Made by a program: the position numbers and the translations under genes. Shown here one piece after another: positions 2,067 through 10,717 of a stretch of DNA of 64,000 bases; position 1 is the stretch's first letter, and each line of letters opens with the position of its first letter. The notes beneath the pieces are model-generated. The model was not told the origin of the DNA, ran no database searches, and worked only from the letters and a program-made list of their open reading frames with translations. Location: positions 1 to 64,000 of the forward strand of contig JANYHF010000052.1 in assembly GCA_025359185.1 (NCBI GenBank). The letters run 5' to 3'. This stretch comes from Hyphomicrobiaceae bacterium. Lineage in GTDB: Bacteria > Pseudomonadota > Alphaproteobacteria > Rhizobiales > Hyphomicrobiaceae.

Positions 2067-4320
<2,254 letters not shown>

Positions 4321-4323
4321 CCG

Positions 4324-4893
4324 CTACTGCTTGGCTTTCGCTTCCATGTAGCCCTGAGTTACCTCATTCTTGTGCGCCGCAAACGCTCCCAAGACTTCGC
4401 CTTTTTCTTTGTCAGGAACCTTGAAGTGATCGAGCGTCTTAGCAAGCTCGCCCGCGACGGCATCGAATTCCTCGGGAGAAATCTTCAACTTCATGTGCGC
4501 GGCTTCGAGGCCGAGCGTCGTGCTACCAGGTTCTGTAGCTGCGTACTGAAATGGACCGCCGCTGATATTGGCGACCCACAGCGTGCGCATGAATTTCAAA
4601 CCGGGAAGCCGCGACAAGTTGTTGGTATGCCATTCCCGGAGCTGCGGGTTTTTTGATTGTTGGCCGGCAACGGGATTTTTCACCACCGCGTCACTAAAAT
4701 AGTCGACGACGGCCGCAATGGCGAAGATGCCGCCAAGTCGGTAGTAGAGGGCGTTCGGGTCCTTTACGTCTTGCGCCGCTGCTGTAGCTTTGGGTGCTCC
4801 GAGCACACTGGCAAGACCTGCTGTCGACAGCATCGCTGCACCTTGCGTCAAGAACTGACGCCGCGGGCGAGTAAAGCCTTCTTCGCTTGTCAT
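4324..4893 (-). CDS. Truncated hemoglobin (group 1-like) with Tat-type signal peptide
   Basis: RPRRQFLTQGAAMLSTAGLA twin-Arg leader followed by LYYRLGGIFAIAAVVDYFSDAVVKNP...FMRTLWVANISGGPFQY...AAHMKLKISPEEFDAVAGELAKTLDHFKV. Confidence 0.78.
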   Translation of the reverse strand: MTSEEGFTRPRRQFLTQGAAMLSTAGLASVLGAPKATAAAQDVKDPNALYYRLGGIFAIAAVVDYFSDAVVKNPVAGQQSKNPQLREWHTNNLSRLPGLKFMRTLWVANISGGPFQYAATEPGSTTLGLEAAHMKLKISPEEFDAVAGELAKTLDHFKVPDKEKGEVLGAFAAHKNEVTQGYMEAKAKQ

Positions 4894-5032
4894 CGCTATC
4901 TCCCATCAGAGGACTGTTTGCGAACATGGCATGATGACCAGTTCGCAACGCCGCCCTGGGAAATCAATTTAACTTTCCTCCAAGCCGACGCTCTAAATTA
5001 GACGCGGCAGCTCAAAAAAAGTTCCCATTTTC

Positions 5033-5754: not shown

Positions 5755-5784
5755 ATTGGATGCGCTTTCTGGAGAAAGGTTCCC
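5755..5784 (-). promoter_or_regulatory. Candidate ECF promoter GGGAACCTTTCTCCAGAAAGCGCATCCAAT
   Basis: GGAAC-N16-CATCCAAT upstream of the ECF sigma gene; same elements and spacing at 6789-6818. Confidence 0.65.
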
Positions 5785-5863
5785 GCGTCCAGATTCCATG
5801 AAGATTTTGGACGCTTCGGTGGAGCAGCATCCGCCGTCTGCAAGGTGATGCTCTTGCAACAGA

Positions 5864-6202
5864 TTAGTTAGCCCGCACGTTGATATTGCCCTTCATGTTG
5901 GGATGGAACCTGCAAAAATATTGCACGGAGCCAACCTCGGTCGCTTGCCAATCCGCCGTCTTGCCCGCCGGAATCATGACATCCCAGGCACCACTTGTTG
6001 CGCCGGACTTGGCGGTGGCGGTGTGTGCGACGAAATCATGGTTGGTCCACCGCACCGTATCGCCAAGATGAATATTTATTTCGGCAGGCGTATAGGCCAG
6101 CTTGCTGATATCGGCTTGCACAACCTCGCCGGCGAGCGCGTTCACCGCGCCCGCCGTCAAGGCTAATGCCACCAGACCTGATCGTATCACGGTTACGGAC
6201 AT
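5864..6202 (-). CDS. Cupredoxin (plastocyanin/amicyanin-like) copper protein with signal peptide
   Basis: ...AEINIHLGDTVRWTNHDFVAHTATAKSGATSGAWDVMIPAGKTADWQATEVGSVQYFCRFHPNMKGNINV: His/Cys/His/Met type-1 copper ligand pattern. Confidence 0.88.
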   Translation of the reverse strand: MSVTVIRSGLVALALTAGAVNALAGEVVQADISKLAYTPAEINIHLGDTVRWTNHDFVAHTATAKSGATSGAWDVMIPAGKTADWQATEVGSVQYFCRFHPNMKGNINVRAN

Positions 6203-6214
6203 TGCAGACGATCC

Positions 6215-6742
6215 CTAGTTGAGGCTCTTGGCGACGTCTTCGGCGTGTTTCTCGTGGCCCTGGAAAATCTTAAGGCCGGTTTCCAGCAAGCCCTTGAGTT
6301 CGGCATTTTGCGCCGAGGGGATCAGTAGGTCGGCGAGCGCGCCGTTGACAGCTTTGTGGTAGGCGACTTCGTTGGCAACGTAAGCCTTGTCGAAGTCAGC
6401 GCCTGAGAGCTTGGCGAGTTCCGCGCGCTTTGCCTCTGCGCTAGTGACAAGGCTCTTGCTTGTGTCATTGTCTTCTGGCGTTACCCCTAGTTTCTTGACC
6501 AGTGCCAGGGCCTGCTCGTTGACCGCGTTGTGGTCGGCGACCATGTTGGTGGCGAAAGACCGCACGGCCTCGTTTTTCGAGTTGGCAAGGGCTTGCTCGG
6601 CAGCCTTCACATCCAGAACCCCCGCAGTGTAGGCGATATGCGCGATCTGCGGATCGGTCGGCTTTTCGGCGGCGCTGGCCGTGTGGGCGCCGGCCAGCAA
6701 GATAATTGCGGCAAGCCGGCGCGCGATTGATGTCAGTTTCAT
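6215..6742 (-). CDS. DUF4142 family secreted protein
   Basis: MKLTSIARRLAAIILLAGAHTASA leader; HIAYTAGVLDVKAAEQALANSKNEAVRSFATNMVADHNAVNEQALALVKKLG...AYVANEVAYHKAVNGAL. Confidence 0.85.
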   Translation of the reverse strand: MKLTSIARRLAAIILLAGAHTASAAEKPTDPQIAHIAYTAGVLDVKAAEQALANSKNEAVRSFATNMVADHNAVNEQALALVKKLGVTPEDNDTSKSLVTSAEAKRAELAKLSGADFDKAYVANEVAYHKAVNGALADLLIPSAQNAELKGLLETGLKIFQGHEKHAEDVAKSLN

Positions 6743-6788
6743 GAGAACCTCCGTTGATAGTGCCCGGACCTGTTGCGGGTACTCAACT

Positions 6789-6818
6789 ATTGGATGAAGC
6801 CTGGCCAAAAAGGTTCCC
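6789..6818 (-). promoter_or_regulatory. Candidate ECF promoter GGGAACCTTTTTGGCCAGGCTTCATCCAAT
   Basis: Same GGAAC-N16-CATCCAAT architecture as upstream of the sigma gene; about 47 nt from the DUF4142 start. Confidence 0.65.
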
Positions 6819-7145: not shown

Positions 7146-7695
7146 GTAATTGGTCACCCCCATTTGGCGCTCAGTGCGACGGACTGACTTGGGCAAGGGG
7201 GCTTGATCTGGCTTGAACGGGCTGAATCAAGCTCGGGATGGACACCGGGTCGCTGGGCACACTCGACGAGCCTGAGCTGATTGCGCTGATCGTGGCGCTG
7301 TCCGCGCAGAACGCCGCGCTGGCCGCCCGTGTCGCCGCGCTCGAGGCCAAGCTGAACATTACGCCCAAGACGCCGGACAACTCTTCGTTGCCGCCCTCGA
7401 CCGGCCAGAAGGCCAACCGGCCCGAGACGGCCAAGACTTCCCGCAAGGGCCGGCCGGGTGTTTCGTGCAACCTCGAGCCAAACCCCGACCATGTGCGCGA
7501 GGTCTATGCCAAGATCTTCCGAAAAGTCACCAATGGCTTCCGTTCGGACTGGGGAGCGGAAGTCTACGCAGATATCTGTTCGATTGTGGCAACGGGCCGC
7601 CTCAGCGGCCGGACCGCCCTGGCCGCCATCACCGAAGCCCTCGCCGCCGGCGCCCTTGCCGTAGCGTGATCACGCGGCATGGGGTGAGCAGTTAC
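7146..7695 (+). mobile_element. Internally deleted IS66-family element with both terminal inverted repeats
   Basis: Left end GTAATTGGTCACCCC (7146-7160), right end GGGGTGAGCAGTTAC (7681-7695); encloses a 143-aa ORF joining the N- and C-terminal parts of an IS66 transposase. Confidence 0.8.
7238..7669 (+). pseudogene. IS66 transposase, in-frame internal deletion (143 aa)
   Basis: MDTGSLGTLDEPELIALIVALSAQNAALAARVAALEAKLN...GRPGVS joined to REVYAKIFRKVTNGFRSDWGAEVYADICSIVATGRLSGRTALAAITEAL. Confidence 0.8.
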
Positions 7696-10586: not shown

Positions 10587-10645
10587 TCTGGCTTTCGAGC
10601 CTAAAATACTATTGTTTATGCTGGTTTATTCTGGTGCAAGATTGG

Positions 10646-10717
10646 CTCCCCGGGATGGGTTCGAACCACCGACCGAGCGATTAACAGTCGCTTGCTCTAC
10701 CACTGAGCTACCGAGGA
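10646..10717 (-). tRNA. tRNA-Asn (GTT)
   Basis: Reverse complement TCCTCGGTAGCTCAGTGGTAGAGCAAGCGACTGTTAATCGCTCGGTCGGTGGTTCGAACCCATCCCGGGGAG(CCA) folds as a 72-nt cloverleaf with loop CTGTTAA. Confidence 0.95.

Follow-up and report, generated by a model that had tools for sequence, protein, structure and literature searches.

Predicted ECF29-type sigma factor promoters upstream of sigma factor, DUF4142-cupredoxin and truncated haemoglobin-like genes in a Hyphomicrobiaceae bacterium

Introduction

Which sigma factor reads a promoter-like motif that recurs with constant spacing upstream of an ECF sigma factor gene and of a nearby DUF4142 gene, and which genes would such a factor control? The question arises from a 64-kb stretch of Hyphomicrobiaceae DNA (hereafter the window), for which the initial annotation proposed that two copies of the motif mark the recognition site of the sigma factor encoded beside them.

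The closest described system is that of Sinorhizobium meliloti RpoE8 (SMb20592), an ECF29 sigma factor whose gene adjoins SMb20593 and amcY (PMC6180224). A transcription start mapped by 5′-RACE upstream of rpoE8 has the elements −35 GGGAAC and −10 GCATCCAA, and a second site of the GGGAAC/GCATCCAA type precedes SMb20593, a DUF4142 gene beside the amicyanin gene (PMC6180224). No transcription start was found at SMb20593, raising rpoE8 expression 126-fold uncovered no target and did not induce SMb20593, and no anti-sigma factor is known for RpoE8 (PMC6180224). For ECF29 as a group, no targets were detected in the one study we found, and neither a signal nor an anti-sigma factor is known. Strongly conserved sites, together with a globin target that is often unlinked, would offer concrete genes for assay.

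Results and Discussion

Three sites in the window

The motif GGGAACCTTT-N12-CATCCAAT occurs with no mismatch at 5784-5755(-) and 6818-6789(-). The initial annotation had placed both copies correctly, in coordinates and in strand, and the 16-nt spacing it claimed for them is confirmed between GGGAAC and CATCCAAT. Its list of sites was incomplete, missing a third, GGGAAC-N16-CGTCTAAT at 5026-4997(-), which begins directly past the end of the sigma gene and lies upstream of a globin ORF at 4893-4324(-). At up to three mismatches, three matches were found in the window compared with 0.01 expected from dinucleotide-preserving shuffles of it. The gene calls for the sigma factor, the DUF4142 protein and the cupredoxin were upheld by profile searches. 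The sites and genes are as follows.

6789-6818, minus strand: predicted ECF29 promoter of the DUF4142-cupredoxin unit; exact match, 33.0 bits, equivalent site in relatives
6215-6742, minus strand: DUF4142 protein of 175 aa, predicted to fold as a helical bundle, with a signal-like stretch at its N-terminus (PF13628, 1.2e-36)
5864-6202, minus strand: amicyanin-like cupredoxin, 112 aa (PF00127, 6.4e-08; TIGR02657, 8.4e-11, below its cut-off)
5755-5784, minus strand: predicted ECF29 promoter through which the sigma gene would be autoregulated; exact match, 36.3 bits
5033-5719, minus strand: ECF29-type sigma factor, 228 aa (NF008888, 277.8 bits, cut-off 204)
4997-5026, minus strand: third predicted ECF29 promoter, 26.8 bits, among the genome's three matches to GGGAAC-N16-CRTCYAAY
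4324-4893, minus strand: truncated haemoglobin-like protein, 189 aa, twin-arginine (RRQFL) signal-like N-terminus (PF01152, 23.5 bits, cut-off 21)

Rather than recurring at random frequency genome-wide, the exact core GGGAAC-N16-CATCCAAT was found, in the genome scan that the initial annotation had proposed, at 5784-5755(-) and 6818-6789(-) only (4.04-Mb genome, 125 contigs). The degenerate pattern GGGAAC-N16-CRTCYAAY, which was broadened once the third site had been seen, has three exact matches in the genome; all are the window sites, and each immediately precedes a different one of three units that share an orientation. The bit scores given above for the sites come from a weight matrix of 37 sites from other genomes, with the window sites excluded because window-derived scoring would be circular. 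By this matrix the next best site in the window reaches 4.3 bits, while the highest-scoring site of a Markov control of 16 Mb reaches 19.0 bits. Two exact copies, just two and near each other, might also be explained as a duplicated stretch, or as chance similarity, with no promoter role. However, they differ in sequence outside the conserved blocks, their matrix scores are far above the 16-Mb control and the motif stands at the same positions in many diverged genomes (see below), making this explanation extremely improbable.

The sigma factor and its group

Sigma-70 regions 2 and 4 of ECF type are present in the sigma factor (PF04542, 1.5e-17; PF08281, 8.2e-14), and its gene is the sole NF008888 match above cut-off in the genome, with six other ECF-like matches far below. 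It is a homologue of RpoE8 and, judged by this homology, its motif and its neighbouring genes, is assigned to the ECF29 type. Both its DUF4142 and amicyanin-type neighbours and its promoter motif of GGGAAC and GCATCCAA type are ECF29 traits. Compared with the S. meliloti RpoE8 locus on pSymB, the window proteins are 49% (sigma), 74% (DUF4142) and 49% (cupredoxin) identical, and both loci have the motif ahead of the sigma gene and ahead of the DUF4142-amicyanin genes. The two loci differ in gene order, the DUF4142-cupredoxin pair preceding the sigma gene in the window and following it in S. meliloti, and in the globin gene with its own site that follows the window sigma gene, none having been seen in the 6 kb examined at the RpoE8 locus.

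Since the RpoE8 locus shares motif and neighbours, the mini-regulon of sigma and DUF4142-cupredoxin genes put forward in the initial annotation is not new, an arrangement of this kind having already been described for ECF29/RpoE8 (PMC6180224). New here are the third site and, as a predicted target, the globin gene; we found neither in the literature searched.

We also considered ECF26, the group of S. meliloti RpoE1, E3, E4 and E6, which resembles the window factor in its ECF architecture and a GGAA-type −35 element. ECF26 members have the consensus GGAATA/GT and accompanying anti-sigma factors, whereas the window −10 element is CATCCAAT; the published ECF26 motif does not fit and this group was rejected.

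Conservation and co-occurrence with the sigma factor

Calling the sigma factor at E ≤ 1e-30, we find it in 21 of 104 genomes of the family, taken to be Hyphomicrobiaceae from the GTDB labels of contigs of G074 and G099 (L142 and L173). The exact motif is present in 12 of these 21 and in none of the 83 without the sigma factor (Fisher 1.7e-10, uncorrected for phylogeny), and a reversed-pattern control gave no matches in these genomes. Most of the family's sigma loci have one site before the sigma gene and one before the DUF4142-cupredoxin pair; three relatives (L028, L041 and L043) have one site or none at two mismatches. In a further 32 loci (30 obtained via NF008888, S. meliloti and one Xanthobacteraceae MAG) the motif lies without exception upstream of both sigma (0–2 mismatches) and DUF4142 (0–3 mismatches). 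One genome (G044) has a second, unlinked DUF4142-cupredoxin pair, likewise with an exact motif. An unlinked exact motif common to sister genomes G042 and G043 (L089, L090) falls within the coding sequence of a large receptor-like ORF; we judged it to reflect conservation of that coding sequence and did not count it as a target.

A −35 element of GGAAC is common to several ECF groups. The sites might thus be read mainly by another ECF sigma factor, for example the general-stress factor EcfG (ECF15), whose −35 is also of GGAAC type; the genome encodes other ECF-like sigma factors, and the CGTC of the third site is closer to a generic ECF −10 element. Against this, the −10 element CATCCAAT agrees with the published ECF29 motif, and the exact motif is absent from all 83 family genomes without the ECF29 sigma factor, most of which we assume to carry EcfG. 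We regard recognition mainly by another ECF factor as very unlikely. Phylogenetic footprinting and sigma-motif co-occurrence instead support recognition by the window's ECF29-type factor, with the autoregulation that the initial annotation had predicted.

A globin gene as a third predicted target

The protein encoded at 4893-4324(-) is weakly similar to truncated haemoglobins and is a putative haem globin. A phmmer search matched it to 1dly (2.1e-05), and His133, a proximal-type histidine, is invariant in 19 sequences. Its sequence similarity to group 1 truncated haemoglobins such as HbN is weak but significant; relative to HbN it has a twin-arginine signal-like N-terminus, which suggests export of the globin, and inserted stretches in the alignment.

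In a scan of GTDB species genomes that yielded 80 globin loci, 23 have the motif at no more than two mismatches within 450 bp upstream, compared with about 1.1% of control windows drawn at random from the same loci. Most of the 23 have no sigma homologue in the flanks examined. Motif-bearing globins include those of Bradyrhizobium, Microvirga, Phyllobacterium and a 7.15-Mb genome (G291) with three matches to GGGAAC-N16-CATCYAAY, which precede sigma, DUF4142 and an unlinked globin. All 11 Bradyrhizobium isolates tested that carry the sigma factor have the globin motif, and in B. yuanmingense no NF008888 match was found and the globin motif is absent. Among the Mesorhizobium globins listed, none has the motif at up to two mismatches, although the sigma factor is present in the majority of the genomes concerned, and over 50 isolates the globin motif was found in 16 of 43 with sigma and 0 of 7 without (p = 0.08). 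Globin membership of the predicted regulon therefore looks lineage-dependent. In one genome (G099) the globin site scores 14 bits, within the range of the Markov control.

These data bear on whether the first two sites could be real ECF29 promoters and the globin site non-functional, leaving a regulon of sigma and DUF4142-cupredoxin genes only. Such a restricted regulon would fit the departure of the third site from consensus (CGTCTAAT) and the many globin homologues without a motif. Set against it are the score of the third site, above the control maximum, and the motif-bearing globins named above, and we judge it improbable. The mini-regulon of the initial annotation thus stands for the sigma gene and the DUF4142-cupredoxin pair, whose sites are kept in relatives, but was incomplete in lacking the globin gene.

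The sequence evidence, namely the three sites, the family to which the factor belongs, and the conservation of the motif and its co-occurrence with the sigma gene, supports the reading of the motif as an ECF29-type sigma promoter that drives the sigma, DUF4142-cupredoxin and exported truncated haemoglobin genes, to which we assign a probability of roughly 0.88. RNA polymerase carrying the ECF29-type factor (5719-5033(-)) would initiate at the three −35/−10 sites, so that the sigma factor would direct its own transcription along with that of the DUF4142-cupredoxin pair and, via the third site, of the globin gene.

The gene products and a candidate sensor

Among solved structures, the DUF4142 model (pLDDT 84.8) comes closest in fold to DUF305 and to CopM, a copper protein, at TM-scores of about 0.6–0.8 but with weak E-values (0.01 or higher); a sequence search of solved structures with DUF4142 gave no match. 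By inspection, the cupredoxin has apparent type 1 copper ligands, His60, Cys97, His100 and Met103, arranged as expected. The combination of a helical bundle resembling CopM and DUF305 with a type 1 copper protein and a haem globin suggests a role in periplasmic metal or redox protection, and the products might form a metal/redox/NO protection set in that compartment. We found no description of such a set for ECF29 in the literature searched.

Scanning of selected neighbouring ORFs revealed no anti-sigma domain. Solved ECF sigma factors align with the window factor only up to about residue 198, and the C-terminal extension (approximately residues 197–228) carries the sequence F-x-F-x-G-x-R-C213. 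The pattern [FY]-x-F-x-G-x-[RH]-C is kept in 24/24 sequences, the window's included, and in 32/32 loci, two genomes being common to both sets; in most of the 32 loci the extension cysteine is the only cysteine of the matched region. ECF29 is listed among groups with regulatory extensions of unstudied mechanism (PMC8999054). The invariant cysteine is a candidate sensor and offers a residue to test for ECF29 control, which may operate through the extension instead of an anti-sigma factor. Long-range fold scores are low in the structure model of the sigma factor, and so we draw no conclusion on domain packing. More speculatively, and with the odds against it, ECF29 might act in many Hyphomicrobiales as a one-component stress switch, its cysteine sensing redox, metal or NO and its activity driving the globin, CopM-like bundle and cupredoxin genes.

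Genomic surroundings and variant loci

A serine recombinase ORF at 2907-4298(-) adjoins the sigma module (Resolvase PF00239, 2e-18; Recombinase PF07508). On its other side a DUF6444-like ORF at 7238-7669(+), possibly a transposase fragment, scores 22.1 bits, under the Pfam cut-off of 27, and a tRNA-Asn gene lies at 10643-10717(-). Together these three features hint that the module may sit in an island that is mobile or degraded.

Other arrangements were seen elsewhere. On a Xanthobacteraceae MAG contig (L104) sigma, DUF4142, cupredoxin and globin genes are contiguous, in that order. Another group of ECF29-like loci (L081, L082, L083 and L084) has a GTP cyclohydrolase I-type gene beside the sigma gene, the encoded proteins from L082 and L083 having been checked by Pfam; loci of this type occur with or without a globin. 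In two genomes (G004 and G007) an exact motif precedes the sigma gene at a distance of about 830 bp, in G004 near a GTP cyclohydrolase I-type gene.
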